Positions 9,778 to 40,845 of a DNA stretch of 64,000 bases are shown piece by piece (positions within the stretch are counted from its first letter, which is position 1; each line of letters starts with the position of its first letter). The stretch is from the NCBI GenBank assembly GCA_012797975.1, contig JAAZOD010000009.1, forward strand, positions 1 through 64,000, written 5' to 3'. The notes under the pieces were generated by a model. The model worked only from the letters and a program-made list of their open reading frames with translations, was not told the DNA's origin and did not search any database. The DNA is from Pelolinea sp. (lineage in GTDB: Bacteria > Chloroflexota > Anaerolineae > Anaerolineales > Anaerolineaceae). The position numbers and the translations under genes were made by a program.

Positions 9778-9786
9778 GGTTTGCAT

Positions 9787-9792: not shown

Positions 9793-9816
9793 CAAAACAC
9801 GAAAAACGAGTGCATC

Positions 9817-22530: not shown

Positions 22531-22531
22531 G

Positions 22532-22576
22532 AAATCAAAGAAACTGCCGAACCTTTGGCAGTTTCTTTGATTTAAA
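22532..22576 (+). terminator. Strong intrinsic terminator
   Basis: 17-bp perfect stem, 22532-22548 with 22557-22573, loop 8 bases, A-rich and T-rich flanks. It follows the GNAT gene and can also act on the opposite strand. Confidence 0.85.
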
Positions 22577-22668
22577 TAATGGGCAGGAAAAAATGCCTCT
22601 TCCAAGAAAACAGGTGAGGTAATGATTCTTTGTTGCCTTACCACTGATGAGATGAAAAGAAAGGATTT

Positions 22669-24308: not shown

Positions 24309-24359
24309 AATAATCAGGTAATATAGTTAATAATATTCTATATTTATGGAATAAAGAGA

Positions 24360-24812
24360 ATGAAAAGATCTAAATTACCATTCTTGTTCGGGATCATCTT
24401 GGGGATTGGCTTTTTTATCCTGGTGCTGGTTATCATCTTTTCATTTCCCAATACCAAAGAGAGCGCCCTTCCGACTGCTGTATTGAATATCACACCCTAC
24501 CTGCCTACCAGCACAGTCTCTTCAGCATATCAAACCGAAACTGCCGTTTCCACGGAACAAACCACCGCAATTCCGGGAGTGTTTGCCACCAATATGCGCG
24601 TGCGCGTTTCTAATACTGGTGGCGACGGGTTGAAAATACACAAAGAGCCAGCTATAGAATCGGACACATTGACAATAGCTTCTGAAAACAGTCTATGGAT
24701 AATAGTAGAAGGACCAACCATCAATCAAAGCCGGATTTGGTGGAAAATCCAATCACAAGATAATGGAACAACGGGATGGGCTGTACAGGATTATTTAACC
24801 GCTGAATACTAG
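24360..24812 (+). CDS. Membrane-anchored SH3-like protein
   Basis: 150 residues. One N-terminal membrane helix (F-L-F-G-I-I-L-G-I-G-F-F-I-L-V-L-V-I-I), a Thr-rich linker to ~residue 75, then an SH3-like domain (G-G-D-G-L-K-I-H-K-E-P ... W-W-K-I-Q-S). A surface-binding role is inferred. It is followed 21 bp later by the MoxR ATPase gene, so it may be the first gene of that operon. Confidence 0.7.
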   Translation: MKRSKLPFLFGIILGIGFFILVLVIIFSFPNTKESALPTAVLNITPYLPTSTVSSAYQTETAVSTEQTTAIPGVFATNMRVRVSNTGGDGLKIHKEPAIESDTLTIASENSLWIIVEGPTINQSRIWWKIQSQDNGTTGWAVQDYLTAEY

Positions 24813-24833
24813 TAATCCCGGGAAGAGGCAGCT

Positions 24834-25781
24834 ATGGAATTCAATGCAGTGAACTCGCTGGCAGGAAAGATCATCGAAAATCTTGAAAGGGTGATCATCG
24901 GAAAACGGGATGCGCTGGAAATGGTCGTGCTGGGATTGTTATGTCGCGGGCATATTCTTATCGAGGATGTGCCGGGCACCGGCAAAACCGTGCTGGCGAA
25001 AAGTTTGGCTATCAGTTTGGGCGGTAAATTCAGCCGTATCCAGTTTACCCCTGATATGCTGCCCAGCGATGTGACTGGAATTTCCATGTACAACCAGGCC
25101 AGCCAAACCTTCGAATTTAGGCCGGGTCCGGTGATGGCGGAGATCGTCCTGGCTGATGAGATCAACCGTGCCACACCCAAAACTCAATCGGCTTTATTGG
25201 AAGCCATGGAAGAAAGGCAGATAACCGTGGATGGCGAAACGCACATACTGCCTGAAGGATTCCTGGTATTTGCCACGCAAAACCCGATCGAATATGAAGG
25301 CACTTTTCCATTACCCGAAGCGCAATTAGACCGTTTTTTGCTGAGAGTGCATATCGGATATCCGAATTTTGTGGATGAATTGCGCATCCTGGAATCGCAG
25401 AAAATCACCCATCCTATTGAATCTCTCCAGGCGGTGACGAACATTGAGGAATTGAAAAGAGCTCAGCACGAAGTTAAACGGGTACATGTGTCGGAGCCCA
25501 TCAAACAATACATTGTCAGCATTGTAGAAGCCACCCGCGAGGATAAAGATGTTTATCTGGGGGCTTCGCCCCGTGGCAGCTTGGGACTGTATCGGGCCGG
25601 GCAAGTGTTTGCCATCCTAGAAGGACGTGATTTTGTCACTCCCGATGATATCAAAAAAGTCACTGTTCCGGTGCTGGCACATCGCATTGTCCTGCATCCA
25701 TCAGCGCGCATCAAGGATCTCAATAAAGATGCACTGGTGACAGAGATCGTGGAACGGGTGGAAGTGCCTGTGCGCGGTTAG
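24834..25781 (+). CDS. MoxR-family AAA+ ATPase
   Basis: 315 residues. AAA+ chaperone-like ATPase: Walker A in E-D-V-P-G-T-G-K-T, Walker B L-A-D-E-I-N-R-A, sensor 1 A-T-Q-N-P and arginine-rich P-L-P-E-A-Q-L-D-R-F-L. A lid domain ends the protein. MoxR proteins help assemble or activate protein complexes together with DUF58 and VWA partners, and the DUF58 gene follows 2 bp later. A GGAAGAGG site precedes the ATG. Confidence 0.93.
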   Translation: MEFNAVNSLAGKIIENLERVIIGKRDALEMVVLGLLCRGHILIEDVPGTGKTVLAKSLAISLGGKFSRIQFTPDMLPSDVTGISMYNQASQTFEFRPGPVMAEIVLADEINRATPKTQSALLEAMEERQITVDGETHILPEGFLVFATQNPIEYEGTFPLPEAQLDRFLLRVHIGYPNFVDELRILESQKITHPIESLQAVTNIEELKRAQHEVKRVHVSEPIKQYIVSIVEATREDKDVYLGASPRGSLGLYRAGQVFAILEGRDFVTPDDIKKVTVPVLAHRIVLHPSARIKDLNKDALVTEIVERVEVPVRG

Positions 25782-25783
25782 GT

Positions 25784-27097
25784 ATGAAAATAAAACCGCG
25801 TTTTTTTATCCTCGTTTTAGGAACAGCAGGTTTTTTGACAGGATGGATTATTTTTAAAGATAATCTGTTTCTGAAATTAATGCTTTTATCGTCTCTTTTT
25901 GGCGCCGTCAGCTATCTTTCTGGCAGGTTTTCATTAAAGGGGATCATTCTGCAGCGAACCTCACGTTTTCAAAAAATGAACGTAGGAAATTACTTTGAGG
26001 ATCATTTTGACCTGGAAAACCGGCATTCTTTCTGGAAACAGTGGCTGGAAATACGGGACTACTCGGGAATTTCGGGAAACCCAGAGGAGGTAAGAGTACT
26101 GGCAGGTTTGGATGCACGGAAGATACGCACATTCAATACGTACACTTTTCTGCAAAGGCGGGGGGAATTTACATTGGGCCCGATGCAGTTGATTTCGAGT
26201 GATTTCTTTGGATTCTTTGAGTTCTCAAAGTGGGTGGAGAATCCTAAAAAATTGGTTGTCCTTCCGCGCATTGTGGAATTGGATCATTTTGCCCATATCC
26301 CTGCTTATTTGAGTGGAGGAAAAGAACTGAAAGTTGCATCTCCGGAAACGACACCATTTGCCGCCGGAGTGCGCGAGTATTTTCCCGGCGATTCCCTGCG
26401 CCGCATTCATTGGCCAACCACTGCCCGCAAAAACAAACTTATGGTGAAAGAGTTTGACAAAGATCCCTTGATGAATACCTGGATCTTGATCGATTGCTCC
26501 ACCGAAAACCATTTTGAATCTGCACAAGCCGAGTCGTTCAGCCACCCGTCTGATTATTGGAGCATTCGCCACCAAACGCATTATGAACTGCCACCCAGCA
26601 CTTTTGAATATGCGGTCACCACTGCCGCTTCGATTTCGAAATACTACATCGAACATAATTTTGGGGTCGGATTGGTCACTTCAGGTGAACAGCGCCAGGT
26701 TCTGATGTCCGATCATGGTTACCGTCAGCTAGGCCGGGTGCTAGACATGCTGGCGTCCGTGCAGGCAGATGGAAAAATACCATTTGGGATTTTTGTCGCT
26801 GAATACATGCGGCAGATCAATCGTGGCAGCACGATTATTCTCATTTCCACCCTGCAAGATGAAGAAATGGTGAATATCCTTGACCTGGCTGCGATGCGCG
26901 GACTGGAGCCTATCTATCTATGCATCCAAAAGGCATCCTTCATGGAAGAAGTGGTTCCGAAGATCGAAGAATATGACCGGTTCAAAAGCGAAATGGAAAT
27001 TCGTTCCATTCCATTTTATGTGCTGACCTATGGTGCGGATATTAAAACCTGCCTTGAAAATAAGGTGGAAATTGAGTCTTTTTTACAAAGATCATAG
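25784..27097 (+). CDS. DUF58 protein, MoxR partner
   Basis: 437 residues. Two N-terminal membrane helices (residues 8-50), an Ig-like region, then the DUF58 domain with the signature G-V-R-E-Y-F-P-G-D-S-L-R-R-I-H-W at ~205-220 and a VWA-like fold behind it (W-I-L-I-D-C-S). Located at the membrane; partner of the upstream MoxR ATPase. The molecular role is undefined in the family. It ends the operon ahead of a hairpin. Confidence 0.9.
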   Translation: MKIKPRFFILVLGTAGFLTGWIIFKDNLFLKLMLLSSLFGAVSYLSGRFSLKGIILQRTSRFQKMNVGNYFEDHFDLENRHSFWKQWLEIRDYSGISGNPEEVRVLAGLDARKIRTFNTYTFLQRRGEFTLGPMQLISSDFFGFFEFSKWVENPKKLVVLPRIVELDHFAHIPAYLSGGKELKVASPETTPFAAGVREYFPGDSLRRIHWPTTARKNKLMVKEFDKDPLMNTWILIDCSTENHFESAQAESFSHPSDYWSIRHQTHYELPPSTFEYAVTTAASISKYYIEHNFGVGLVTSGEQRQVLMSDHGYRQLGRVLDMLASVQADGKIPFGIFVAEYMRQINRGSTIILISTLQDEEMVNILDLAAMRGLEPIYLCIQKASFMEEVVPKIEEYDRFKSEMEIRSIPFYVLTYGADIKTCLENKVEIESFLQRS

Positions 27098-27134
27098 AAA
27101 AGTACGGTGCATTTCTCAATTAACTGCATAAGGA

Positions 27135-27160
27135 AAGGGCGGTAGTAGAACGCCGCCCTT
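27135..27160. terminator. Hairpin between DUF58 and lon
   Basis: 8-bp stem AAGGGCGG (27135-27142) and CCGCCCTT (27153-27160), loop 10 bases. The T-tract is weak on both strands; it probably serves the two converging genes. Confidence 0.5.
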
Positions 27161-27170
27161 CAAACTTACA

Positions 27171-29711
27171 TTATTTTGCATCCGGTGTCATAGCTTTTTT
27201 CAGGATTTGTTTGACATCATCCACCGGGATGAACTGGATGCTTTTGCGTACTTCTTCTGGCAGATCATCCAGATCACCTTTGTTTTCTTTTGGTAAAAAG
27301 ATGGTTTTCAATCCCGCTCGGTGAGCTGCCAGCATCTTTTCTTTAATACCACCCACTGGCAAAACCTGGCCACGCAAGGTGATCTCACCGGTCATTCCTA
27401 CCTCAGGACGAATGGGTTTCTGGATGAGCAAAGAGATCAGCGCAGTGGTCATGGTGACACCTGCAGACGGTCCATCCTTGGGAGTAGCTCCCGCTGGGAT
27501 ATGCAGGTGGATATCCGTCTTTTCAAAGAAGTTGGGATCAATTCCATATTCGCTTGCATGCGCGCGCACATACGAAAGCGCCGCTTGGGCAGATTCTTCC
27601 ATCACTTCACCGATCGAACCGGTGATCTTGAACTGCTGATTGCCGGGCATGCGGGTCGCCTCGATAAAGAGAATATCACCTCCGGTGGGCGTCCAGGCCA
27701 GTCCGGTAGCCACACCGGGAATGGAGGTGCGCATCATGATCTCTTCGCTGGGTTTGAAAATTGGGCGCCCCAGCATTTCATGCACATACTTCACGCTCAC
27801 GTCTTTGATCAGGCGTCTCTTTTCGAATTTACGGGTGACGATCTTGCGCAAGACCGCTCCAATATTGCGTTCTAGGCTGCGCACGCCAGATTCACGCGTA
27901 TATTCGCGAATGATGGTCAAGACCGCATCGTCTTCAAAGGCAATCTCCTGTTGCAGCAGTCCGTTTTCTTTTAACTGGCGCGGAATGAGATAATTTTTCG
28001 CGATCTGCAATTTCTCGTTTTCGGTATAGCCGGAAATTTGAATGATCTCCATACGGTCCAGCAATGGGGCAGGGATGGATTCCATCGTGTTGGCGGTGGT
28101 GATGAACATGACTTGCGATAGATCAAATGCCACCTCCAGATAGTTATCGCGGAACTCGGAATTCTGCTCGGGGTCCAGCACTTCCAGTAAAGCGGAGGAA
28201 GGATCTCCCTGATAATCGGAAGAGAGTTTGTCGATCTCATCGAGCATGAAAACCGGATTCCGTGATTCGACGCGGCGCAAGGCTTGAATGATTCTGCCAG
28301 GCATGGCGCCAATGTAGGTGCGGCGATGACCGCGGATCTCCGCCTCATCGCGCGTGCCACCCAGGGAAGTACGGATGAATTCGCGCCCCATAGCAGATGC
28401 AATGGATTTGCCCAATGAGGTCTTGCCAACGCCGGGAGGCCCTACGAAGCACAGGATGACACCTTCACGTTCCTGACGGATGGAATCATGATAGTCCTGA
28501 CTGGAGAGTTCATCTTTCCTCTGCAAGCGCAATTTGCGCACTGCCAGGTATTCAAGGATGCGCTTCTTCACGTCCTCCAGACCGTAATGATCTTTATCCA
28601 GCACCTCTTTAGCGTGGCGGATATCCAGATCATCTTCGTTGGATTTTGACCAGGGAAGCGAAACCAACCAATCCAGATAGGTGCGGATGACACCGTACTC
28701 CGCAGCAGCGGTGGGCAGGCGGGAGAGGCGGTCCAGTTCACGTGTAGCCATTTTTTCGGCTTCACTGCTCATTCCAGCTTTGGCGATTTTTTCACGAAAC
28801 TCGCTGACCTCCGCTTCCTGTTCGTCCGATTCACCCAGTTCTTTCTGGATGGCTTTTAACTGCTCGCGTAGATAATATTCGCGCTGAACTTTTTCGATCT
28901 CTTCGCGGGCTTCATTTTGGATTTTCTTTCCGAGGTTCAGCACTTCGCTCTCACGGGTGAGAATGCCGACCAGTTTGCGCAGTTTATCGGTGGTGGAGTC
29001 CAATTCAAGGATCTGTTCTGCATCATCCACTTCCATGCGCTGAAAATTGGCAATACTGTAAACCGTTTGCAGAGGGTCTTGTAGCGCATTGATAGAAACC
29101 ACGATCTCGGAAGGGATGGAAGGCACCAGCTCGGCGATCTGGCTGAATTGATCGCGCACATTACGCGCCAACGCTTCGATTTTCAACCCTGTTTCCACTT
29201 TCTCTGGAGCGGGAACAATCTGTGCCTTTAAGAATGGTTTTGTTTCAGTGTATTTTTTCACCTTGAAACGGGTCGTGCCCTGAACCAGTAGTCGAATGGT
29301 TCCATCCGGGGCGCGGAATAGGCGGTGAATAATGGCCAGTGTGCCATATGGATAAAGCATTTCTGGTCCCGGTTCATCCACTGTTGGGTCTTTGGAAGCA
29401 ACCAAACCTACCAACCGGTTCGACTTGACTACTTCATCGACCAATTGAATTGAGCGTTCCTGACCGATGGTAAGAGGAACCGCAGTTTGCGGATAAACGA
29501 CCAGACCACGCAACGGCAGAATGGGAATCTCTTCCGGGAATTCATTTTGATTCTTCTGTTCGTTGGGCTTGTTTTCTATTTCAATAAGCCCTTCATCATT
29601 GGTAAGATCTTCCATGTTCAGTGTAAGTACCATTTCGTTAAAATCTCTTTCTTCGTCGGCAAAGAGCTCGAGAATTTCCATGATGTTAGTCTTCCAGCGA
29701 GAGGCGGGCAT
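27171..29711 (-). CDS. lon: ATP-dependent protease Lon
   Basis: 846 residues. N-terminal substrate-binding domain ([13 protein letters not shown] at ~60), central AAA+ module with Walker [10 protein letters not shown] and Walker B F-M-L-D-E-I-D-K, and C-terminal Ser/Lys protease domain with [12 protein letters not shown] and G-G-I-K-E-K. The complete LonA set is present, so it should degrade misfolded and regulatory proteins. An AAGGTGA site suits the ATG at 29711; the ATG at 29681 is an alternative. It follows hsp20 by 3 bp, so chaperone and protease are co-expressed. Confidence 0.95.
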
Positions 29712-29714
29712 CTG

Positions 29715-30137
29715 TTAGTTCACCTTGATCTGTTTGCTTTTTGCTTTGGGCAGAGTGACGTGTAGAAATCCATTATCATACACCGCCGAAATAGCATTTT
29801 CGTCAAACGGTCCGGGAATTTCCACAGAGGATGAGAAATCTCCGCTGGGTATTTCCATCTGGTGGAAAGCGCAATCGGGGAAGCTTTCCCAACGGGTCCC
29901 GTCGATGGTGAGCATGCTGCCGGCGATATTGATGCGAAAATCGTCCACGTTCATACCGGCAATCTCCATACGCACCATGTAGCTATCATTGCTCTCGATA
30001 AGATCGGTGAGGGGGCGCCAGGCATGCGGTTTCGATGAAAGGTGCCAGTGGGTGATGCGGGTCGTGAATTGAATGGGATCATTATCATCAAAGGGACGCG
30101 ATCCCGAAGGATAGAATTGAATTTGAACAGTTTCCAT
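29715..30137 (-). CDS. Hsp20-family protein in operon with lon
   Basis: 140 residues. Divergent alpha-crystallin domain: M-E-I-A-G-M-N-V-D-D-F-R-I-N-I and the C-terminal N-G-F-L-H-V-T-L-P-K signature are intact. It lacks the long N-terminal arm seen in the 18026 gene product. A role in holding substrates for Lon is inferred from the 3-bp spacing. An AAGGTGAAG site precedes the ATG. Confidence 0.87.
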   Translation of the reverse strand: METVQIQFYPSGSRPFDDNDPIQFTTRITHWHLSSKPHAWRPLTDLIESNDSYMVRMEIAGMNVDDFRINIAGSMLTIDGTRWESFPDCAFHQMEIPSGDFSSSVEIPGPFDENAISAVYDNGFLHVTLPKAKSKQIKVN

Positions 30138-30180
30138 ACTTCACCTTAAAAATGGATGATTCTTATTTTGCCTTACTTCA

Positions 30181-30213
30181 ATTATAAGGGATATAAGAGT
30201 TGTGTTAGACAAC
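30181..30213 (-). promoter_or_regulatory. -10 box and small palindrome upstream of hsp20-lon
   Basis: On the minus strand a TATAAT (30186-30181) lies 45 bp before the hsp20 ATG. A 5-bp inverted repeat, GTTGT-n5-ACAAC (30199-30213), sits where the -35 box should be, and the -35 match itself is poor. That pattern suits a repressor-controlled or alternative promoter. Confidence 0.4.
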
Positions 30214-30226
30214 GCCCATTAAACAC

Positions 30227-30270
30227 GATGATGCGGAGACAATCCGCATGGATGGATGTTCCGCATCATC
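30227..30270 (-). promoter_or_regulatory. Alternative-hairpin element between DUF4405 and hsp20
   Basis: Arms GATGATGCGGA (30227-30237) and TCCGCATCATC (30260-30270) can form an 11-bp stem. A third copy, TCCGCAT (30243-30249), can pair with the first arm instead with a 5-base loop. There is no T-tract on the minus strand. Confidence 0.45.
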
Positions 30271-30291
30271 AAAGTAAGGAAGAAGAGAGAT

Positions 30292-30816
30292 TTATGCTAT
30301 TTCTTTGTTTTGTCGCTTGCCCATTAGACTGGCGACCGGGTTAATGAACAGACGCTTGATCACAAGCAGATACCAGCGCCATTGAAGAATGAGATGCAAA
30401 CCGAGGACATAGATGGTGTAACGCGTGATCATTTTGTGCAACATCTCGATCTCACGACCTGCCCGGCCAACCTGGATGCCCAGGGAAGGAAGCAGGGAGC
30501 GTGACATCATCAAGCCGGTGATGATGATGGCAAAGAGACAAACGAGAAGGACACTGTTCACTATCAGGCGCAGAATGGGCAGGTACTGATGGCTCTTAAA
30601 AATGCGCTTGAAATACCCCAAGATCATTTTCCAATGCAAAATGAGATGAATCAAGATCATGGCGCCGATGGCGGTCCCCAGAATCTCATGCAAGGATTTT
30701 CCGGTGGAGCGCATGTGGTTGAGCAGGATGAAAGAAACAAGCAAGCCGACATCAAGTACAAGATGGGTGAGGATCTTTCCTATGGATTGGGTTTTGACGT
30801 TTTCTGTTTTTTCCAT
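30292..30816 (-). CDS. DUF4405-like membrane protein
   Basis: 174 residues. Four predicted membrane helices with paired His residues in hydrophobic context (I-L-I-H-L-I-L-H-W, L-H-K-M-I-T-R-Y, L-G-L-H-L-I-L-Q-W), the arrangement of haem-binding cytochrome b-like proteins in the DUF4405 family. An electron-transfer role is inferred from those His residues only. An AAGGA site precedes the ATG. A long leader with a perfect hairpin lies upstream. Confidence 0.72.
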   Translation of the reverse strand: MEKTENVKTQSIGKILTHLVLDVGLLVSFILLNHMRSTGKSLHEILGTAIGAMILIHLILHWKMILGYFKRIFKSHQYLPILRLIVNSVLLVCLFAIIITGLMMSRSLLPSLGIQVGRAGREIEMLHKMITRYTIYVLGLHLILQWRWYLLVIKRLFINPVASLMGKRQNKEIA

Positions 30817-31152
30817 TTTTTATTCCTTGAAATCCGGTCCAAATTTTTTGCCAGTGAGTGGGGAACTTTCGGTTCCCCACTCTGCGTTCCACCAGGTGGG
30901 AGGAGGCCATCTGATAGATTCGTTGTCAAGCTGGCCTGGGAGTACCCCAGAACAATGAGGAGTTCGATGCGTTCAATGCAGCTATTCTAGCAAGGTGTAT
31001 CCTTTTTTTATTCACACCTGGGGACGATTTCCGGAACGTCTGCAGGATGAATCCTGGAATACCTTTCTCCGACTCAAGATGGACTGTTGGCAGTTGACAG
31101 ATAAAATTTCTGCGCCAAAATACTGTTAATCATTTTTTCCGGAGGTTTGCAC
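30817..31152. other. Divergent intergenic region with a hairpin
   Basis: 336 bp between the DUF4405 (minus) and DUF2804 (plus) genes. It holds a perfect 11-bp hairpin, GAGTGGGGAAC (30856-30866) and GTTCCCCACTC (30872-30882), with loop TTTCG, placed in the DUF4405 leader. A TTGACA at 31094-31099 is a candidate -35 for DUF2804, though its -10 is poor. No gene is seen. Confidence 0.55.
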
Positions 31153-32187
31153 ATGCAGAACGAGATCACAAAGTCAGGCAAGCTGCTCAAGGCAAATGGA
31201 ACATTGGAACAAATTGGATGGGCAAGGACGCAAAATTTGGACTGCAATTTGGAAAATGCGCGTTTCTATGCGATAAAAGGTCTGCAGAAATTCCGTATTA
31301 AGCGCTGGGATTACTATGCAGTCTTCACACCGCAGCGTTTTTTCTCGGCGACAGTAGCGGACCTGGGATATGCCGGGAACGTTTTTGTGTACCACATGGA
31401 TTTTGTCACCAGGGAACTGCATGAAGAAGGTTTGGTGATCCCCTTCGGAAAAGGTGTCCAACTGCCGCGCAACAGCATGGAAGGTGATACCTGTTTTCAA
31501 AACGAAAAAGCCAGCATGAAGTTCTCGCTTAAGGATAAAACGAGACATATTGCAGTGGATTGGCCATCCTTCGATGGTGGGAAAGGGCTATCTGTCGACC
31601 TGACACTGTACGAGTTGAAGAACCATGAATCCATGAACATCGTTATCCCCATTGGCAAACGACGCTTTTATTACAACCGTAAGATCAACTGCATGCCCGC
31701 CGAGGGCGTGATCACCTGTGGAAAAATCAAGGAAACCTTGAATAGAAAATCCAGCATCGCATCGCTGGATTGGGGGCGCGGGGTGTGGGAATACTCCAGT
31801 TTCTGGAATTGGGCCAGCGCGTCAGGTTTTCTGCCGAACGGGGATACCATCGGCTTGAATCTAGGCTGCGGATTTGGGGATATTTCGCGCGCCACCGAGA
31901 ATGCCATCATTCATAATGGAAAGATTCATAAACTGGATCAGGTGCCCTTCATGTACGACAGCGGGAATTACATGAAACCCTGGATTTTCAAGGATAATCA
32001 AGGCAGGTTGGACTTGACCTTTATTCCTTTCAAAGAGCGGATTGCCACCACGAAGCTGGTTATCATCGACAGCGAGGTGCACCAGATGTTCGGGAAATAT
32101 AATGGGTTCTTTATCACAGATGAAGGGAAAAAGGTGGAGATCACGGATCTGATCGGCTTCGCAGAAGAGCATCATGCCAGATGGTAA
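31153..32187 (+). CDS. DUF2804 domain protein
   Basis: 344 residues. Recognised by the DUF2804 pattern: N-x-x-L-x-x-x-G-W-A-R near the start, F-Y-Y-N-R-K-I-N-C-M-P-A-x-G, D-W-G-R-G-V-W-E-Y-S-S-F-W-N-W-A and G-L-N-L-G-x-G-F. Cytosolic beta-rich fold of unknown function; some relatives resemble lipocalin-like AttH proteins. The ATG at 31153 has a GGAGG site; an upstream TTG is less likely. It is separated by 120 bp from the surface-acylation operon. Confidence 0.82.
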   Translation: MQNEITKSGKLLKANGTLEQIGWARTQNLDCNLENARFYAIKGLQKFRIKRWDYYAVFTPQRFFSATVADLGYAGNVFVYHMDFVTRELHEEGLVIPFGKGVQLPRNSMEGDTCFQNEKASMKFSLKDKTRHIAVDWPSFDGGKGLSVDLTLYELKNHESMNIVIPIGKRRFYYNRKINCMPAEGVITCGKIKETLNRKSSIASLDWGRGVWEYSSFWNWASASGFLPNGDTIGLNLGCGFGDISRATENAIIHNGKIHKLDQVPFMYDSGNYMKPWIFKDNQGRLDLTFIPFKERIATTKLVIIDSEVHQMFGKYNGFFITDEGKKVEITDLIGFAEEHHARW

Positions 32188-32307
32188 ACGCAGCAGGGCA
32201 GGATGAAAGCCTGTCCATTTTTGTTAATCTGTACGGATAAAATAACTTTTGAAGGCAGTATTTCTTATTCTTGCAAAACATGCATTAAAATAGACCTAGG
32301 AGAACTC

Positions 32308-32694
32308 ATGAAAAAACTGACATGTTTTGTTTTGATATCTTGTTTGGTTGTCATCATACTGGCGGGTTGTGCAGCCAAAGCCGACCCGGCGGATGCTGTG
32401 ATGGGGTACCTGACCGCGCTGGTTGGCCAGGACGCGGATGGAGCGGTAGCCCTTTCCTGCGCGGATTGGGAAGAGCAGGCCAAACTGGAAACGGATTCTT
32501 TTCTATCGGTGCAGGCAACCCTGAACAATGTGCAGTGCAAGACAGTCGTTTCCAACGATGCCAGTGCTGAAGTGTCCTGCAGCGGGATGATCGACATGAC
32601 TTATAACGATGAAGTGCGTTCCATCGATCTAAGTCTGCGAACCTATGCCTTGCAGAAACAGGCGGGTGAATGGCTGGTTTGCGGATATAAATAA
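32308..32694 (+). CDS. Small lipoprotein heading the acylation operon
   Basis: 128 residues. Type II signal peptide with lipobox L-A-G-C at ~residue 21, then an NTF2-like fold is suggested by A-V-M-G-Y-L-T-A-L-V-G-Q-D-A-D-G-A-V. Four Cys residues in the mature part may form disulfides. The ATG at 32308 follows an AGGAGAA site. The microprotein ATG lies 14 bp after its stop, so it is probably co-transcribed with the MBOAT/SGNH genes. Function unknown. Confidence 0.75.
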   Translation: MKKLTCFVLISCLVVIILAGCAAKADPADAVMGYLTALVGQDADGAVALSCADWEEQAKLETDSFLSVQATLNNVQCKTVVSNDASAEVSCSGMIDMTYNDEVRSIDLSLRTYALQKQAGEWLVCGYK

Positions 32695-32708
32695 AATTGT
32701 CGTCAACT

Positions 32709-32825
32709 ATGGGCGAAAACAGAAAAAAAGAAAATTTCTGGGTGTTGATCCTGGTGGTGATCATCCTGGCGCTGCTGATCTTCAGCGTGGATACGAGCCC
32801 CTTGTGGATCTATCAGGGTTTCTAA
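32709..32825 (+). CDS. 38-residue single-pass microprotein, DltX-like
   Basis: A short gene not easily found by length-based callers. It has a charged N-terminus (M-G-E-N-R-K-K-E-N), one hydrophobic helix (V-L-I-L-V-V-I-I-L-A-L-L-I-F) and a C-terminus ending S-P-L-W-I-Y-Q-G-F. Its TAA is followed directly by the MBOAT ATG with no gap. Gram-positive DltX proteins are the same size and topology and end in an aromatic-x-Tyr-x-x-Phe motif whose Tyr carries the acyl group between DltB and DltD; DUF5989 peptides next to other MBOAT genes look alike. The role here is inferred from that likeness. No strong ribosome site is seen. Confidence 0.75.
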   Translation: MGENRKKENFWVLILVVIILALLIFSVDTSPLWIYQGF

Positions 32826-34247
32826 ATGAATCTGATCCAGATCACCAGCGCTGCGCTCGGCAGTCTTGCATTTCGTTTTTTGGATAAGGACAGGAATAAA
32901 GAAAAAGCGATTTTCATTGCAAATATCTTTTTCCTGTTCCTGTTGCAACCAAACAGTTCCCTGCGCTCGTTGAACGTTCTTTTGCCCTGGGCGACGATCT
33001 TTTTGATTCTGGCGGTGGGGTTGGGGGTGAGTGGGACTAGCTCCCGCCAAGAAATTGCCCAAATTGCGCTGTTTTCGCTGAGCGGTTTTCTGCCATTTGT
33101 TCTTCCAGAGTTCTTCCCGGGTTTAAAAACCACTGTGCTGGATAAGAACATCAATCAGACCGTCTTGGGGATCTTTCTGCTGGGTTCTGTCTGCTGTATT
33201 GCTGTTCTAGCACGGATCAAACAGAAGAGAAGTTATCTGCTCTTTTTTTTGGCATTCATCCTTGTGCTGTTTGTTATTTTGAAACAACCGGCCATCAGTA
33301 CCTGGGCGAGCAGGGGCTGGCGCATATTGTTCCAACAGAAGGGCGAGCTGGCATCCAGTCTGGATTTGCGCTGGATTGGATATTCGTATATTGCTTTCCG
33401 CCTGATCCATGTCATCCGCGAGTTTCAAAAGGGACGTTTTCAAGATATTTCCCTGCTGCGGTATATGAATTTTTGCCTGTTCTTTCCTGCCCTATCTGCC
33501 GGGCCGATTGCTAAGTATGATGATTTTTCTCAACAGATGCAACAGCCGGTGAATACGGTCGAAAGCAGTTTGCCGGAAGGCGGTGAACGGCTGGTTATCG
33601 GCCTGTTCAAGAAATTTGTTTTGGCCGATAGTCTGGCGCTGGTTGCGTTGAATTCCAGCAACGCGGGTCAGATCACTTCAACCGGTTGGATGTGGCTGGC
33701 ATTGATCCTGTATTCTTTGCAGATCTACTTTGATTTCAGCGGATATACCGATATTGCCATCGGGCTGGGCTTATTCCTGGGGATCCGCTTGCCGGAGAAC
33801 TTCGATCATCCTTATCTGAAAAGCAATCTGACGAAGTTCTGGGATAGCTGGCACATCACACTTTCGCAATGGATTCGTGCTTATTTCTTCAACCCACTGA
33901 ACCGCAGCTTGCGAAAATCAAAGCTGGCGAAGTCACCCAACAGCATCCTGTTTCTCACGCAGGTATCCACCATGCTTGTTATCGGGTTGTGGCATGGCAT
34001 TACATGGACATTTGCCGTATGGGGGCTGTGGCATGGATTGGGCTTATTTATTCAAAACCGTTGGAGTACGTATGCGAGAAACCACTTCCTGAAAGTACGT
34101 GAAAATCCCAAGTTGGAAAAAGGAATCCAAATACTCTCCACAGTGGGAACATTTCTGTATGTCAGTGTGGGGTGGGTATGGTTTTTAAGCACCAGCATGC
34201 CGCAAGCTTGCGACATCTTTCTAAAGTTGTTGGGGAAGGGTTTTTAA
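32826..34247 (+). CDS. MBOAT-family O-acyltransferase (DltB/AlgI-like)
   Basis: 473 residues. Polytopic membrane protein with ~11 helices. Family blocks are D-F-S-G-Y-T-D-I-A-I-G-L-G, L-P-E-N-F-D-H-P-Y-L-K, F-W-D-S-W-H-I-T-L-S-Q-W-I-R and G-L-W-H-G-I-T-W-T-F, the last holding the conserved catalytic His. It would move an acyl group from a cytosolic thioester carrier across the membrane. The acyl donor is probably the ACP encoded downstream. It starts immediately after the microprotein stop and 3 bp before the SGNH gene. Confidence 0.92.
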   Translation: MNLIQITSAALGSLAFRFLDKDRNKEKAIFIANIFFLFLLQPNSSLRSLNVLLPWATIFLILAVGLGVSGTSSRQEIAQIALFSLSGFLPFVLPEFFPGLKTTVLDKNINQTVLGIFLLGSVCCIAVLARIKQKRSYLLFFLAFILVLFVILKQPAISTWASRGWRILFQQKGELASSLDLRWIGYSYIAFRLIHVIREFQKGRFQDISLLRYMNFCLFFPALSAGPIAKYDDFSQQMQQPVNTVESSLPEGGERLVIGLFKKFVLADSLALVALNSSNAGQITSTGWMWLALILYSLQIYFDFSGYTDIAIGLGLFLGIRLPENFDHPYLKSNLTKFWDSWHITLSQWIRAYFFNPLNRSLRKSKLAKSPNSILFLTQVSTMLVIGLWHGITWTFAVWGLWHGLGLFIQNRWSTYARNHFLKVRENPKLEKGIQILSTVGTFLYVSVGWVWFLSTSMPQACDIFLKLLGKGF

Positions 34248-34250
34248 GGC

Positions 34251-35360
34251 ATGCAAAAGCCGATCATCAACGTTTGGAGAGTCATTGGAAAGGCCTGCCT
34301 TGTGCTGTTGATCATCAATTTTGCCTTTCCGCTCTTGAGCTTTCTCCATTTTCCCACTGTATCGTTATATAACCACCTGTATCCAGGCAGGCAACGGCTG
34401 CCTTTTGGAGAAAATCCATCATTATCCTATAATCTGACGCTCAATGACATCGATGCCATGCTGGCATCGCACGTGGTGGCAAATTCGGACCCGGGTGCTG
34501 GATACTCTATTTTTGTGATCGGAGATTCATCCATCTGGGGAACCTTGTTGGAAAATCGAGATACTGTACCTGCTCAATTACAGAATGCGGTGAATGCAGG
34601 AAAACAAACCAATGCTCCGGTGAGAGTATATAACTTGGGTTATCCGACTTCGTCAGTATTGAAGGACCTGGTTTTGCTGGATGAAGCCATGCAGTATCAA
34701 CCGGATATGGTGATTTGGTTTGTCACTCTGAACTCTTTGATCAAAAATTCCTATCAGGAAGCACCGATTGTACTGAACAATCCCGAAAAAACCAATGCGG
34801 TCATTGAGCGGTACGGGTTAGATACAGAGCTGCTGCCTGAGAGGACTTACTGGGAAAAAACTTTCCTCGAGCAGCGGCGCGACATCTATGACCGCATTCG
34901 TCTGCAGATCCTAGGTTCCATGTGGGCAGCTACCGGAATCGACCAGTATATACCCGAAGAATATACGCCTGCCACCCGCGATCTGGAAACGGATGATTCC
35001 TATCAGTATCTGGAAGGACATACTCTGAGTGAAAATGACCTTGATTTATCAGTGATCACGAGTTTTATCGCACAAAACCCTTCTGTGCGGGTGATTGTGG
35101 TCAATGAACCGATCCTGATCAGTAGCGGTGCGAACAGCGACCTGCGGTATGACCTGTACTATCCGCGTTGGACCTATGATACTTATCGCGCGCTGATTTC
35201 CGCAAAATTCGAAGAAATGGAGATACAATATATCGATTTGTGGGATGTGGTCCCCGAGACCCTGTTTACCAACAGTGCCATTCATTACGATGCTCAGGGT
35301 GTCGATATTGTTACGGAGAAACTATATTCATTCATTATGAAGGATATTGAAGAACCATGA
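34251..35360 (+). CDS. Membrane-anchored SGNH acyltransferase-like protein (DltD/AlgJ-like)
   Basis: 369 residues. One N-terminal membrane helix (V-L-L-I-I-N-F-A-F-P-L-L), then an extracellular SGNH domain with block I F-V-I-G-D-S-S-I-W-G (nucleophile Ser) and the C-terminal I-H-Y-D-A-Q-G block that supplies His. It would take the acyl group and pass it to a surface polymer. Its stop overlaps the next ATG (ATGA), and the MBOAT gene lies 3 bp upstream. The exact acceptor is not known. Confidence 0.82.
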   Translation: MQKPIINVWRVIGKACLVLLIINFAFPLLSFLHFPTVSLYNHLYPGRQRLPFGENPSLSYNLTLNDIDAMLASHVVANSDPGAGYSIFVIGDSSIWGTLLENRDTVPAQLQNAVNAGKQTNAPVRVYNLGYPTSSVLKDLVLLDEAMQYQPDMVIWFVTLNSLIKNSYQEAPIVLNNPEKTNAVIERYGLDTELLPERTYWEKTFLEQRRDIYDRIRLQILGSMWAATGIDQYIPEEYTPATRDLETDDSYQYLEGHTLSENDLDLSVITSFIAQNPSVRVIVVNEPILISSGANSDLRYDLYYPRWTYDTYRALISAKFEEMEIQYIDLWDVVPETLFTNSAIHYDAQGVDIVTEKLYSFIMKDIEEP

Positions 35361-36289
35361 AATGCAGGATGCTCTTACTTTTTCTTCTGATTGCAATTTT
35401 ACTGGTAAGCTGTTCGAAAAATTCCACCGGGAATGCTGCTGGAGCAACACCTACCACACTCATCGAACTGGATACGAATACGCCAGAAGCTACTGCCACC
35501 AATGCAGCGACCAATACACCGTTGCCCACTGAAACTCCCTCCTATACTGCCACTCCCGATACTCGCATGCCTCCGGAGCAATGGAAAAGCTGGCCGGTGG
35601 TACCGCAGATATCCGGTACCGTACTGGATATCTACCAACATGGGCAGGAATTGGGCAGAAACCCTAACGCCTTTTCCAAAATTGGCGATTGCCAAAATGT
35701 AAAAGAAGCATTTTTGGGTTTCTTTGATCGGCAAGCAGTGGCACTGGCTGAAAGCCAGAAAGGGTTGCAGGAGACCATTGATAACTTCAGGGGATATTTC
35801 AACCGGGATGGCTTTGCCGTCAAGGGTGGTCTCAATGCACCTTCCAGTTTGAACCCGCTGATGTCCGATCCAACTGCCTGCCAGCCGGAGGAGAACCCGC
35901 TGCAGTGTGAAATTCGCAACAATAACCCTGCCTATGCGTTTGTCAGCTTTGAGTTATGGTACCAGGGGCGTTCCGCTGAGAATTACGAAGGATATCTGCG
36001 CCAGGTACTGGATTATTTGATCTCCGAGGGTGTAATTCCGATCTTGATCACCAAAGCGGACAATACCGAGGGGGATGATTCCATCAATTACACCATTGCC
36101 AAACTGGCTTATGAATATGATCTGCCGATGATCAATTGGTGGTATACCGCACATACCATGCCTAACAATGGCATGGATACTACGCGTAATGACAATTTCC
36201 ATATCTCACCCGAAGCATGGACGGAACGCAGCTATGACGCCCTGGAAACACTGGACCGCATTTGGAAAATCGTACGAGATATTCGGTAG
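35357..36289 (+). CDS. SGNH-like lipoprotein with Cys at the nucleophile position
   Basis: 310 residues. Lipoprotein signal with lipobox L-V-S-C at residue 19, a Thr/Pro-rich linker (~30-70), then an SGNH-type domain. Block I reads S-K-I-G-D-C-Q, so the Ser of G-D-S is Cys112; the end has D-N-F-H-I-S for the Asp/His pair. I believe related Anaerolineae proteins also carry G-D-C, but cannot check. It may use a Cys nucleophile or bind acylated glycans without hydrolysis. Co-translated with the preceding SGNH gene (ATGA overlap). Confidence 0.78.
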   Translation: MKCRMLLLFLLIAILLVSCSKNSTGNAAGATPTTLIELDTNTPEATATNAATNTPLPTETPSYTATPDTRMPPEQWKSWPVVPQISGTVLDIYQHGQELGRNPNAFSKIGDCQNVKEAFLGFFDRQAVALAESQKGLQETIDNFRGYFNRDGFAVKGGLNAPSSLNPLMSDPTACQPEENPLQCEIRNNNPAYAFVSFELWYQGRSAENYEGYLRQVLDYLISEGVIPILITKADNTEGDDSINYTIAKLAYEYDLPMINWWYTAHTMPNNGMDTTRNDNFHISPEAWTERSYDALETLDRIWKIVRDIR

Positions 36290-36300
36290 ATAGGGATACC

Positions 36301-36549
36301 ATGGACAAAAATACGATCGTTGCACAAGTTGGCAAAAAAATCGCGGCCGATATTTTGAAAGAGCCAAACAAAATCATCAAAGCGGATGAAGCAATCATCA
36401 GCAGTGGCTTGGTGGATTCGTTTTCATTGGTAGATCTGGCATTGATCGTGGAGGACCTGTACGGAGTCCATATCGACGATGCAGAGCTATCCGCAGATGT
36501 ATTCGATACACTCAATCAATTGGCTGATCTGGTACTGAAGCGATTATAG
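36301..36549 (+). CDS. Acyl carrier protein
   Basis: 82 residues. Carrier domain with phosphopantetheine site Ser in L-V-D-S-F-S-L-V-D-L, flanked by the usual acidic helix II/III. It is DltC-sized. It would hold the acyl thioester made by the downstream AMP ligase. Start ATG at 36301 is chosen because the upstream in-frame codons overlap the previous gene and are not ACP-like. It is 1 bp from the ligase gene. Confidence 0.9.
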   Translation: MDKNTIVAQVGKKIAADILKEPNKIIKADEAIISSGLVDSFSLVDLALIVEDLYGVHIDDAELSADVFDTLNQLADLVLKRL

Positions 36550-36550
36550 A

Positions 36551-38233
36551 ATGAAAAATTTTTCCTCCGTATTGCTGGAGCACTATGCCAACCAAGGGGA
36601 TAAGGTGATCTTGTATTTTCAAAGCATTGGAAAAGAAGATCTTCCCATAACTTACAAAAGTTTATTGGAAAATTCCTACTGTTATACAAAAGAATACATA
36701 AAAAATGGCATAAAACCCGGAGATATCATCATTCTTGTTCTCCAACACAGTTTGGAATTGATTTACGCATACTATGGTGCCATTCTGGCAGGTGCAATAC
36801 CTTCCATCATGCCATTTTTAACAGAGAAATTACTACCGGAAAAATACCAGCAGGATTTTCAATCGTTGGTGAAGATCATCCAACCCGAATCCATCATTAC
36901 TTATCAAGAATTCAAGCAAGGTGTTTTTGACCAATTCAGCCAGCAATTGCCGGTGCACAGCATGCTTTTATGCGAGGAGATCGCATTGGAAGGCGAACCG
37001 TTACCAGCCGGACTGCCTGGCCTGACGCGTGACTCCCAGGATATCGTACTGCTGCAACATTCCTCAGGCACCACCGGACTGCAAAAAGGAGTGGCATTAA
37101 CACACCAGGCGGTCTTCCAGCAGTTGGAACATTATTCCAAGGCCATTCACCTTGCGCCGCAAAAAGATGTGATTGTGAGCTGGCTGCCTTTGTATCATGA
37201 TATGGGACTGATCGCCTGCTTTTTAATGCCTATTCTCTGCGGTGTACCGCTGGTGATGATGTCTCCCTTCGATTGGGTGAAAGCACCATACCGGCTATTC
37301 ACTTCTATCAGCAACTATCATGGCACGTTATGCTGGTTGCCCAATTTTGCCTACAATTTTTGTGCAAAAAAGATCCGTGATTCACAGTTGGAAGAGGTCG
37401 ATCTCTCCAGTTTACGGGCGGTCATCAATTGTTCCGAGCCCGTTCGATATGAGAGCCATCAAGCTTTTTTACAAAAATACCGACCTTTTGGATTCAAGGC
37501 TAGTGCTCTGGCTGCCAGTTATGCCATGGCTGAAAACGTCTTTGCAGTGACGCAGGGCGGGGTTGATTTTCCACTGGTGGAAGACCATATTGACCGGGAT
37601 GATTTTCAGATGCATAAAAAGGCGACACCGGTTACACCGGGAGCAGCCGGTGTGATCATGCTTTCCACCGGAAGGCCCATTGAAAGTGTGGCTGTACAAG
37701 TGATCGATGAGCAGGGGAAATTGCTGGGAGAAAGGCAAATTGGAGAAGTAATCATTCAAAGCGATTGCCTTTTCACCGGATATTACAATCGACCGGACAT
37801 TACTGAAAAATCAGTCTTGAACGGGTGGTTTAAAACCGGGGATTATGGCTATCTTGCTGAGGGGGAAGTGTATATCACCGGTCGTAAGAAAGATCTGATC
37901 ATTGTGGGTGGAAAAAACATTTATCCGCAGGACCTGGAAGCCATTGCCATGGAGGTGGAGGGAGTTCATCCTGGTAGGGTGGTGGCATTCGGCATTTTCA
38001 ATGAATCCTCAGGAACAGAGGACGTGGTTATCGTGGCTGAAGCCAATAAAGGTGCGGAGGATAAGGAAGAGATCGGCAATGCCATCAAAGAGAAAGTGAC
38101 GCGGAACTCTGCCATTGCGCTGCGGCATGTGCTAGTGGTGGATGAGAAGTGGCTGATCAAAACCAGCAGCGGCAAAATTGCACGTTCTGCAAATAAAGAG
38201 AAATATCTTGCCCAGCTCCATCTGCCAAATTGA
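36551..38233 (+). CDS. AMP-forming acyl ligase (FAAL/DltA-like)
   Basis: 560 residues. Adenylate-forming enzyme of the ANL superfamily: P-loop L-Q-H-S-S-G-T-T-G-L-Q-K-G, A5-type block S-Y-A-M-A-E-N, hinge G-D-Y-G-Y-L-A-E-G and the C-terminal catalytic Lys in T-S-S-G-K-I-A-R. The overall pattern is closer to fatty-acyl-AMP ligases than to DltA. It would activate an acyl group as AMP ester and load it on the neighbouring ACP. The acyl group is not readable from sequence. Last gene of the operon. Confidence 0.9.
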   Translation: MKNFSSVLLEHYANQGDKVILYFQSIGKEDLPITYKSLLENSYCYTKEYIKNGIKPGDIIILVLQHSLELIYAYYGAILAGAIPSIMPFLTEKLLPEKYQQDFQSLVKIIQPESIITYQEFKQGVFDQFSQQLPVHSMLLCEEIALEGEPLPAGLPGLTRDSQDIVLLQHSSGTTGLQKGVALTHQAVFQQLEHYSKAIHLAPQKDVIVSWLPLYHDMGLIACFLMPILCGVPLVMMSPFDWVKAPYRLFTSISNYHGTLCWLPNFAYNFCAKKIRDSQLEEVDLSSLRAVINCSEPVRYESHQAFLQKYRPFGFKASALAASYAMAENVFAVTQGGVDFPLVEDHIDRDDFQMHKKATPVTPGAAGVIMLSTGRPIESVAVQVIDEQGKLLGERQIGEVIIQSDCLFTGYYNRPDITEKSVLNGWFKTGDYGYLAEGEVYITGRKKDLIIVGGKNIYPQDLEAIAMEVEGVHPGRVVAFGIFNESSGTEDVVIVAEANKGAEDKEEIGNAIKEKVTRNSAIALRHVLVVDEKWLIKTSSGKIARSANKEKYLAQLHLPN

Positions 38234-38326: not shown

Positions 38327-39580
38327 ATGGAAACATTTAAGCCATTAAAGAATACGTTCAACGGATTCTTCAAGAAAAATCCATATTTGCGGATTATTGG
38401 ATGGAATGCGCTCGTTGTTGCCCTCCTTTTTGCAGGTAGCTGGTTAATTGCCCATTTTTTGATGGGAGGAAAGGATTTTTATGTAAAATGGAGCAGTACT
38501 GTCCTTTTGCGTACGGAACAGATCAACCCGTACAGCAATCAGGCAACTCAAAGGATCGCTGAATCTGCAGAATCGACCATCTTTTTTCCACTTGCCGAGA
38601 ATGCTGTATTTTCCAGCCCAATCTATAGTCTTTTTCTTTATTATCCGTTGAGTTTTATACGCAATTTCGAATGGGCCAGGGCGGTCTGGTTAACTTGCTG
38701 TACTTTCTTTTGGGTGAAAGCCTGGAAGGGGCAAAATCTATTCAAAAGAATATCGAACACTAGCTCACAAATCCTCTTTCTGTGGATTTTTGCATTCTTG
38801 AATGTCTTTACGCTGATGATCTTTTTAGGGGGAGATCTGGTTGCGATCTCTTTCTTGCTGATCCTGTTTGCTTTTCAAAAGATACAGGAGGGAAAATATG
38901 AGCTGGCGGGAATTTTCTGTGGTTTGGCAACGCTAAACCCGGGGCTGGCATTGAGCGCCATGTTGATTTTCACCATCTTCAGCATTAAAAATCGGAATGC
39001 TGGTTTTCTGGTGTGGTTCCTGATCACAACCGGGTTGCTTTGTTTTTCCGGCTATTTGCTTCAAAACGATTGGATGATTCAATTCTTGCAGAGCAATATC
39101 AAAGTGGTCAGAACTTTGATTTCTAGTGTCGATCTTGGAATAAAAAATTTGACCCAACTACTGAAAATTGCACTACCTTTGATCCTGGCCCTTTTTGAAT
39201 GGCTGCGTTCACTCAATCGGTTGGATCAACCGGAAAAGGTAAACTGGATTTTCAACTATACGATCCTGTTGCTGGCATTGGGCTTCTGTAATCTGATCCC
39301 ATCGCTCATCATTCTTTTTCTTCCCGCGATTTTTCAGATTTACAGTGAATGGGAAAAACGGGAGAGTTCGACCGCTCGGCTTATCGGGTATGGACATCTG
39401 GGTGTTTACCTTGTAATTTCCATCCTTTTATTGATCCTGAAGCCAGGAATTCTGGTAGGCAGGGATGCAATCCCCGAATTCTTAGTCTGGCTGACCGGAT
39501 TTCACCTGATCGTGGGCATGTATTGGATCAGGGGCTGGTTGTATCAGGATACCATGAGGAATTTCATAAAATCTGAGTGA
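38327..39580 (+). CDS. Polytopic membrane glycosyltransferase, GT87-like
   Basis: 417 residues with ~10 hydrophobic helices. The N-terminal loop has D-F-Y-V-K-W-S-S and I-N-P-Y-S, matching the acidic/Pro-Tyr pattern of GT-C type mannosyl- or arabinosyltransferases in the GT87 (DUF2029) family; no further motif is certain. It would transfer sugar from a polyprenyl phosphate. The gene lies 93 bp after the acylation operon and may act on the same glycan. Confidence 0.6.
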   Translation: METFKPLKNTFNGFFKKNPYLRIIGWNALVVALLFAGSWLIAHFLMGGKDFYVKWSSTVLLRTEQINPYSNQATQRIAESAESTIFFPLAENAVFSSPIYSLFLYYPLSFIRNFEWARAVWLTCCTFFWVKAWKGQNLFKRISNTSSQILFLWIFAFLNVFTLMIFLGGDLVAISFLLILFAFQKIQEGKYELAGIFCGLATLNPGLALSAMLIFTIFSIKNRNAGFLVWFLITTGLLCFSGYLLQNDWMIQFLQSNIKVVRTLISSVDLGIKNLTQLLKIALPLILALFEWLRSLNRLDQPEKVNWIFNYTILLLALGFCNLIPSLIILFLPAIFQIYSEWEKRESSTARLIGYGHLGVYLVISILLLILKPGILVGRDAIPEFLVWLTGFHLIVGMYWIRGWLYQDTMRNFIKSE

Positions 39581-39642: not shown

Positions 39643-40809
39643 ATGACGAAAACAATTGGGATTCTCACCGGGGGAGGCGATGTACCAGGTTTAAATCCGG
39701 CGATGAAAATGGTCGTTCTTAACGCAATTGAAGAGGGATATAAGGTCTACGGTATTCGGCGTGGATGGATGGGTTTGTTGAACTATGATCTGGATGAGCC
39801 GGCCACCCATGAATATTACGTCAATGAATTGGATGATTTGGCTGTGCGCAAGATTGACCGCAATGGTGGCACCTTCTTGCATACTTCGCGAACGAATCCA
39901 CAGAAGGTAAAGGATAAAGATGTTCCTGATTTTCTCAAAGGGTCACCGGAAGGCGAGGATTTAGGGAACAACTCCTTTGACTTCACCTCTCATGTGCTCA
40001 AGATCCTTGATCATCTCAATATTGACGTACTGATCACCATTGGCGGTGATGATACCCTCAGTTATTCAGCGAGATTGACCAAAGAAGGTTTTCCGACGGT
40101 TGGGATTCCCAAAACGATGGATAATGACGTGTTCGGCACCGATTATTGTATCGGTTTCTCTACTGCCATCACCCGCAGTGTGGAAATGATTACCAATATG
40201 CGCACTTCACTTGGTTCTCATGAACGAATTGGGGTGATTGAACTGTTTGGAAGGAATTCGGGGGAAACCAGCTTGGTGAGCGCTTATTTATCGCATGTTG
40301 ATCGTGCAATTATCTCCGAAATACCTTTTAATATGGAAAAATTGGCAAATCTGTTGGCCGATGATAAGCAGCGCAGCCCTTCGAATTATTCCATCATGAC
40401 CGTCTCCGAAGGCGCGACCATTAAAGATGGCGAAATCATTGAACGGGGTGATACCGATGCTTATGGTCACCGCAAACTTGGCGGTATCGGCGACATTATT
40501 GCCGAAGAGATCAAACGGATAACCGGACAAAATACCATGTACCAGAAGCTGGGTTATTTAATGCGCTCAGGGCCACCGGACTCATTGGACCGCATGGTAG
40601 CAATGTGCTTTGGAACATTGGCTTTTCAATTAGTAAAGAAGAATGATTTTGGAAAGATGGTAGCACTGCGAGAAGGCAAATATACGACCTTCCCGTTGGA
40701 TCAAGTTACTTCGGGAAAACGTGTGGTGGATGTGGATGCATATTATGACAAAGAAAACTATAAACCGCACGTGAAGAACGTATTCGGACTTCCCATGTTC
40801 CTTTCTTGA
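39643..40809 (+). CDS. pfp: 6-phosphofructokinase, pyrophosphate-type signature
   Basis: 388 residues. Phosphofructokinase fold with G-G-G-D-V-P-G-L-N near the start, G-G-D-D-T (Asp137) and P-K-T-M-D-N-D (Lys157). In the family, Asp and Lys at these two places (Gly104 and Gly124 in E. coli PFK) mark enzymes that use pyrophosphate instead of ATP. It would catalyse the reversible glycolytic/gluconeogenic step in the cytosol. A GGAGG site precedes the ATG and a strong terminator follows. Confidence 0.88.
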
Positions 40810-40817
40810 ACTAGAAT

Positions 40818-40845
40818 AGGGCGGGCAAATACCCCGCCCTTTTTT
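40818..40845 (+). terminator. Intrinsic terminator after the PFK gene
   Basis: 8-bp GC-rich stem AGGGCGGG (40818-40825) and CCCGCCCT (40833-40840), loop 7 bases, followed by six T in total. Confidence 0.9.

Follow-up and report, generated by a model that had tools for sequence, protein, structure and literature searches.

The DNA analysed here (the window) is a stretch of 64,000 nt from Pelolinea sp., of the family Anaerolineaceae (Chloroflexota), taken from contig JAAZOD010000009.1 of assembly GCA_012797975.1; the genome that carries it comprises 2.57 Mb in 35 contigs. Positions 32308-38233 hold an operon of seven open reading frames (ORFs), all on the + strand and with intergenic spacings of +14, 0, +3, -4, +11 and +1 bp, which encode a lipoprotein, a microprotein, a membrane-bound O-acyltransferase (MBOAT), two proteins of the SGNH fold, an acyl carrier protein (ACP) and a ligase of the fatty acyl-AMP ligase (FAAL) type (Table 1). 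Pfam recognises the MBOAT (E-value 4.3e-27), the ACP (PP-binding, 6.4e-7) and the ligase (AMP-binding, 1.6e-44). The first SGNH protein reaches only Lipase_GDSL_2, at 2.5e-4 and under the cut-off, and no Pfam family scored above the cut-off for the second SGNH-like protein, the lipoprotein or the microprotein. A preliminary description of this DNA had reported a gapless run of seven genes, which we recovered in full, and had guessed the phylum correctly: a contig of the same genus and a plasmid record of the same family are labelled Anaerolineaceae. We propose that the operon probably encodes a transmembrane acyl relay of the type found in Dlt, the system for D-alanylation of teichoic acids in Bacillota (DltA, DltB, DltC, DltD and DltX), with a loading enzyme of the fatty-acid type.

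Table 1. Features of the operon and of the gene downstream of it, in window coordinates.
Feature	Position	Strand	Remarks
Lipoprotein, 128 aa	32308..32694	+	Lipobox Cys21; further invariant Cys 51, 77, 91 and 125
DltX-like membrane microprotein, 38 aa	32709..32825	+	Charged N-terminus, one hydrophobic helix, C-terminus WIYQGF
Acyl-shuttle motif W-I-Y-Q-G-F, microprotein residues 33-38	32805..32822	+	Tyr35, proposed acyl carrier
MBOAT O-acyltransferase, 473 aa	32826..34247	+	DltB-like core; own C-terminus without shuttle motif
SGNH protein, DltD-like, N-terminally anchored	34251..35360	+	Ser93, His345
SGNH-fold lipoprotein	35357..36289	+	Cys112 replaces Ser nucleophile (GDC); DxxH His282; one to several copies in relatives
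ACP, 82 aa	36301..36549	+	Phosphopantetheine Ser40 within D-S-F
FAAL-type ligase, 560 aa	36551..38233	+	CoA-rejecting Met218 and Phe266
Polytopic membrane protein, GT87-like glycosyltransferase family; possible operon extension	38327..39580	+	After the ligase in 7 relatives

The microprotein and its MBOAT partner

Genome searches covered the Chloroflexota. A search of 101 genomes of the family with the window MBOAT gave matches at E <= 0.001 in 64, and 52 have a full-length orthologue scoring >270 bits. We examined 53 stretches around MBOAT orthologues (family loci, L035-L087) from 51 other genomes, two of which contributed two each, together with a control set of seven stretches around other MBOATs of Anaerolineaceae (L088-L094). 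In 51 of the 53 family loci, the start of the MBOAT gene is adjoined by a small ORF with the C-terminal motif, encoding 33-57 aa (one of the 51 has 74 aa when counted from the first start codon). In L054 the motif end sits in a longer ORF, which brings the microprotein to 52 of 53 loci; in the remaining locus, L055, the contig ends inside the MBOAT gene, so that the upstream genes are cut away. Across the family the microprotein consists of one helix and ends in W-I-Y-(Q/S)-G-F. Of the 7,437 small ORFs elsewhere in these stretches, only 2 end in [FWY].Y..F, and hence we rejected the possibility of a chance ORF. Moreover, the codons of the motif vary silently (Tyr as TAT in 29 and TAC in 22, Ile as ATC in 31 and ATT in 20, and Gly with all four codons), suggesting that the peptide itself is under selection.

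We read the C-termini of all 60 MBOATs, 53 from the family loci and seven from the controls. None of the 53 family MBOATs has a.Y..F motif of its own at the C-terminus, that of the window ending in LLGKGF, whereas all seven control MBOATs carry a fused motif (FIYAGF and similar; NIYGGF in L089), and the seven control stretches contain no separate microprotein. Among Bacillota dlt stretches, the annotated DltX proteins of L145 and L146 lie next to DltB and end in FIYNEF; a motif scan found one candidate in L148 (YIYNDF) and none in L147. Passages of PMC12148441 describe DltX as an FxYxxF acyl shuttle beside DltB and PatA as having the fused form, with formation of acyl-Tyr demonstrated for PatA. 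The microprotein of the window is likewise a separate membrane peptide of the FxYxxF type, its first motif residue being W, not F. Judged by these motifs, the division between MBOAT and microprotein is a split of the DltB/DltX type, which bears out the DltX-like microprotein of the preliminary description.

The MBOAT itself is related to DltB. A profile of the family matched only DltB among PDB sequences (6bug, 1.3e-61), and the catalytic-site residues His343 and His390 are invariant in 31 aligned members. On the DltB equivalog model TIGR04091, the window MBOAT scores 220.9 bits, below the cut-off of 375. This model separates split from fused MBOATs poorly (221 bits against 159-198 in nine others); therefore, we built an MBOAT tree, using every fourth family MBOAT (13 of 53). 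Split, DltB and fused MBOATs form three groups, with the split clade apart from DltB at a support of 100/99; since this tree of three groups is unrooted, a sister relation of the split clade to DltB cannot be read from it. Length filters removed some rows from our alignments, including the set used for the tree.

Two Anaerolineaceae stretches have ACP and FAAL genes adjoining MBOATs with a fused motif (L111:3951-7358, FVYQGF; L112:4979-15249, FIYVQF and FVYVQF). If linked in function, these genes would add to the family a second acylation cluster of the carrier type, and the fused form would not always be fed by acyl-CoA.

Conservation and distribution of the cluster

Using tblastn, we detected the lipoprotein upstream of the MBOAT in 52 of the 53 family loci (about 1 kb further off in L059), an ACP gene in 26 and a FAAL gene in 20. 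The first SGNH protein is present in 47 loci, and 58 copies of the second SGNH lipoprotein are distributed over 39 loci. In one family contig (G045:C2) the FAAL gene lies about 34 kb away from the MBOAT cluster. The outer neighbours of the gene block mostly vary, except within the window's genus and genus g17, which points to the block behaving as a self-contained module.

Of 400 genomes drawn from across the phylum, 34 had a match to the MBOAT at E <= 1e-60, all of them from the class Anaerolineae. Among 20 stretches from the wider order and class, the microprotein is present in 18, the lipoprotein in 14, and both ACP and FAAL in 12; the two without a microprotein are L138 and the short contig L141. 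The preliminary description had made conservation of gene order in relatives a test of its proposal, and synteny holds across both the family loci and the order and class loci. We conclude that, by gene content, the system is spread over the class Anaerolineae. In a plasmid collection, the best match came from Leptolinea sp. HRD-7, at 47% identity, with the next among the matches listed at 37.5%. The match lies on a 212-kb plasmid (AP024711.1; L144:5104-7083), where the lipoprotein, a 47-aa microprotein and the MBOAT are each annotated as 'hypothetical protein'. If available in culture, this strain could make the system testable.

Ligase, carrier and SGNH proteins

The best PDB matches of the ligase are 3kxw (6.8e-73), which is labelled Saframycin Mx1 synthetase B and which we take to be a FAAL, 3pbk (fatty acyl-adenylate ligase, 3.9e-63) and 7r7g (1.1e-62), taken as RsFAAL by its residue numbers. 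Met218 and Phe266 of the ligase align with M217 and F265 of RsFAAL and are kept in 53 of 53 aligned relatives; according to passages of PMC8460268, FAALs use these two residues to block CoA. The DltA model TIGR01734 scores the ligase at 33.7 bits, where the cut-off is 559.85, and finds no match above its cut-off anywhere in the genome. Identity to DltA of three Bacillota plasmids is 21-22%, at no more than 57 bits. We conclude that the ligase is, by sequence class, a FAAL and not a DltA, as the preliminary description had suspected.

These results bear on the reading that the operon is a true pathway of D-alanylation, or of another aminoacylation, with a diverged ligase. Every Dlt role is represented, the MBOAT is DltB-like and the ACP matches the dltC model, if weakly (22.9 bits against a cut-off of 52.35). 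However, the DltA model, the low identity to DltA and the FAAL hallmark residues led us to reject a true Dlt pathway, and we did not find the TagF family (PF04464) in the genome, where LtaS-type synthesis was not searched for (TagF was detected in 3 of 14 controls). We therefore regard this reading as extremely improbable.

The D-S-F of the ACP is invariant, and in 27 of 27 sequences the pantetheine Ser is followed by a hydrophobic residue at +1, Val at +4 and an acidic residue at +5 (F41, V44 and D45 in the window protein). Passages of PMC11035591 report that DltC residues of the same kind at those positions touch DltB. The genome also encodes a pantetheinyl transferase of the ACPS family.

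The predicted model of the first SGNH protein (pLDDT 88) has an N-terminal helix followed by an SGNH fold. Its best structural match is 8a2n (Z 15.7, root-mean-square deviation (rmsd) 3.7, 210 residues aligned), and its longest alignments are with DltD: 278 residues for 3bma (Z 13.8, rmsd 4.9), 272 for 6pfx and 262 for 7dxm, at Z 12.9-13.8 and rmsd 4.7-5.4, with the Z-scores of the DltD matches tied with those of many SGNH esterases. A sequence profile of this family found no DltD in PDB, only three weak matches (E 0.7-0.9). Ser93 and His345 are invariant in 37 aligned members. On its predicted fold, the first SGNH protein is thus an anchored, DltD-like protein.

For the second SGNH lipoprotein, the predicted model (pLDDT 86) is closest to 1yzf (Z 15.8, rmsd 2.6, 168 aligned) and also matches PatB (8tlb; Z 14.4, rmsd 3.1, 175 aligned), and the family profile matches TesA at 1.5e-6. 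The Ser expected in the GDS block is absent: the nucleophile position holds Cys in 54 of 55 sequences and Ser in one. The His of the DxxH motif is kept in 28 of 37 members and is Tyr in the other 9, so that some copies may be non-catalytic. We found a Cys-His dyad unsupported as a rule for the family, given 27 members with Cys and His, nine with Cys and Tyr and one with Ser and His. In the window protein, the Asn of the GxN block is missing as well. Two family loci have an SGNH lipoprotein with a long C-terminal extension, beta-propeller-like by eye (L061, ORF 3510-5555; L072, ORF 9215-11317; coordinates oriented by the MBOAT).

The five Cys residues of the lipoprotein at the head of the operon are kept in 54 of 54 aligned rows. 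Some relatives give a weak NTF2/SnoaL-like signal (DUF4440 in 10 of 38, at best 1.6e-4) and the window protein gives none; a profile search against PDB sequences found no match. A role as a scaffold is possible.

A proposed acyl relay and its setting

From gene content, conservation, motifs, predicted folds and the class of the ligase by sequence, all observed directly here, we infer how the relay works: each reaction in it, the identity of the acyl group and of its acceptor, and what the two lipoproteins do. The chemistry is modelled on that of Dlt and PatA. The FAAL would activate a carboxylic acid, most probably a fatty acid of medium or long chain, to acyl-AMP and load it onto the phosphopantetheine at Ser40 of the ACP. 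At the cytoplasmic face, the MBOAT would accept the acyl group from the ACP and, by way of its catalytic His, transfer it to the outward-facing Tyr35 of the microprotein. From the Tyr ester, the group would pass to Ser93 of the DltD-like protein, which, together with the Cys-type SGNH lipoprotein or lipoproteins, would attach it to a hydroxyl group in the envelope, carried by a molecule that the adjoining GT87-like enzyme may help to make. Given a loading enzyme of a type that activates fatty acids, the group put on the surface molecule is probably a fatty or similar acid. The preliminary description had proposed acyl activation, loading of an ACP and transfer through the membrane to a surface glycan or lipid; synteny and the grouping of the ligase with FAALs favour such a pathway, of which the acyl group and the glycan or lipid acceptor are the conjectural parts.

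Several observations weigh against the relay. The lipoprotein is present in just 14 of the 20 order and class loci, and one member of the split clade, L138:7194-8603, has an MBOAT and an SGNH protein with no recognisable microprotein in its 14-kb stretch. The MBOAT does not keep the DltC-binding helix of DltB (M302/V305/I306/M309 against N356/N359/R360/R363, by eye). The top NCBIfam model of the ligase is PRK07768, a long-chain-fatty-acid--CoA ligase (359.8 bits, cut-off 572), and the fatty acyl-AMP ligase model PRK09192 ranks behind it (347.2 bits, cut-off 600). The FAAL is missing at E <= 1e-60 from 12 of the 52 MBOAT genomes. Six of the 53 clusters have an ACP but no FAAL (L079, L080, L083, L085, L086 and L087), and their genomes have none at the same threshold; hence, the FAAL is not universal in the system. 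Finally, membership in the FAAL class leaves the chain length of the acyl group unfixed.

This last point allows for the same relay with a short or polar acyl group (acetyl, a hydroxyacid or another small acid), akin to a carrier-fed O-acetylation of polysaccharide or peptidoglycan. The MBOAT-SGNH systems named in the relevant passages of PMC12148441 transfer acetyl or D-Ala; yet, according to the same passages, acetylating systems use acyl-CoA and no carrier, and the ligase has its best PDB relatives among enzymes of the FAAL type. We consider a short acyl group unlikely.

It could also be argued that the FAAL and ACP serve an unrelated pathway (lipid, polyketide or lipopeptide) and are chance neighbours of an MBOAT-SGNH system fed by acyl-CoA. 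This would fit the 12 MBOAT genomes without a FAAL, as well as 17 examined stretches in which the FAAL lies apart from the MBOAT, with the ACP adjoining it in 15, 3 kb off in L100 and not found in L103. However, several families of the class have the ACP-FAAL pair linked to the MBOAT, and a FAAL occurs in 40 of the 52 MBOAT genomes but in only 4 of the 49 that lack the MBOAT (Fisher p 8e-13, uncorrected for kinship). Nor did we find a condensation domain of nonribosomal peptide synthetases (NRPSs) in the genome, where polyketide synthases were not searched for; an NRPS-type lipopeptide start is thus unsupported. In addition, a detached microprotein is, in the known case covered by passages of PMC12148441, paired with a carrier donor. 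Chance adjacency therefore seems to us improbable.

Returning to the fatty-acyl relay of the Dlt type, it is possible, though we lean slightly against it, that the class as a whole exports fatty acyl groups by this route, ending in an SGNH lipoprotein with a Cys nucleophile and covalently lipidating the outer envelope without a detected Omp85; the related fused-motif clusters would then show carrier-fed MBOATs beyond Dlt. Omp85 was not found in the genome, and the match to Lnt is partial and under the cut-off (41.3 of 132.9 bits). One idea for the acceptor route is N-acylation of lipoproteins in place of Lnt.

The cluster shares with Dlt a ligase, a carrier, an MBOAT lacking a fused motif, a separate one-helix microprotein ending in aromatic-x-Y-x-x-F, and an anchored SGNH protein that, in its predicted fold, can be aligned along DltD. 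Unlike Dlt, it has a FAAL-type ligase, a different gene order and an MBOAT under the DltB equivalog cut-off, in a genome without a detected TagF, and it adds two conserved lipoproteins, one of them a Cys-type SGNH protein. Thus, it resembles Dlt but is not a member, because it fails the tests for the ligase and the DltB equivalog. With PatA/PatB and other MBOAT-SGNH pairs that acetylate polymers, it has in common an MBOAT, an SGNH protein and an acyl-Tyr shuttle motif; unlike it, those systems fuse the motif to the MBOAT, use acyl-CoA and have neither carrier nor microprotein, as passages of PMC12148441 describe them. The same passages give it as a rule that MBOAT-SGNH pathways outside Dlt lack a carrier protein and a DltX-like microprotein, whereas the Anaerolineae cluster has both, and a fatty-acid-type ligase as well. 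A CoA-rejecting FAAL adjoining a free-standing ACP is also found in lipopeptide, polyketide and mycobacterial lipid pathways, but its neighbour here is a membrane acyltransferase system. The term 'MBOAT' is absent from the main text of a review of FAALs (PMC11837247). Neither a FAAL-ACP-MBOAT surface pathway nor an MBOAT system of Chloroflexota was among the matches listed in a search of literature titles and abstract openings, from which subscription work mostly fell outside. If our proposal is correct, there would be a second carrier-fed relay to set beside Dlt; bacteria of a widespread class would probably have a new form of envelope acylation, and SGNH acyltransferases may include a Cys type. 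The abstract of PMC7332563 describes the cell biology of the phylum Chloroflexota as poorly studied.

The transcription unit may include one more gene, 38327-39580, a homologue of which lies 3' of the ligase gene in seven relatives from the window's genus and two other genera. Three of eight members of its family reach GT87, at best with 3.8e-6, and the window member has no match. A G+C-rich stem with a T-tail, readable on both strands, lies at 40818-40840, after a phosphofructokinase gene (39643-40809). The operon transcript might run to this stem, but promoter and terminator scans of the window found no more sites than in shuffled sequence. On the upstream side, a homologue, 76% identical, of the window gene 21400-22530 directly precedes the operon in three stretches of the same genus. 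In the window, about 9.7 kb (22531-32203), with MoxR, DUF58, Lon-like (by eye), HSP20 and DUF2804 genes in the neighbourhood of a kinase gene, separates that gene from the operon, and this arrangement is a local rearrangement relative to the same-genus stretches.

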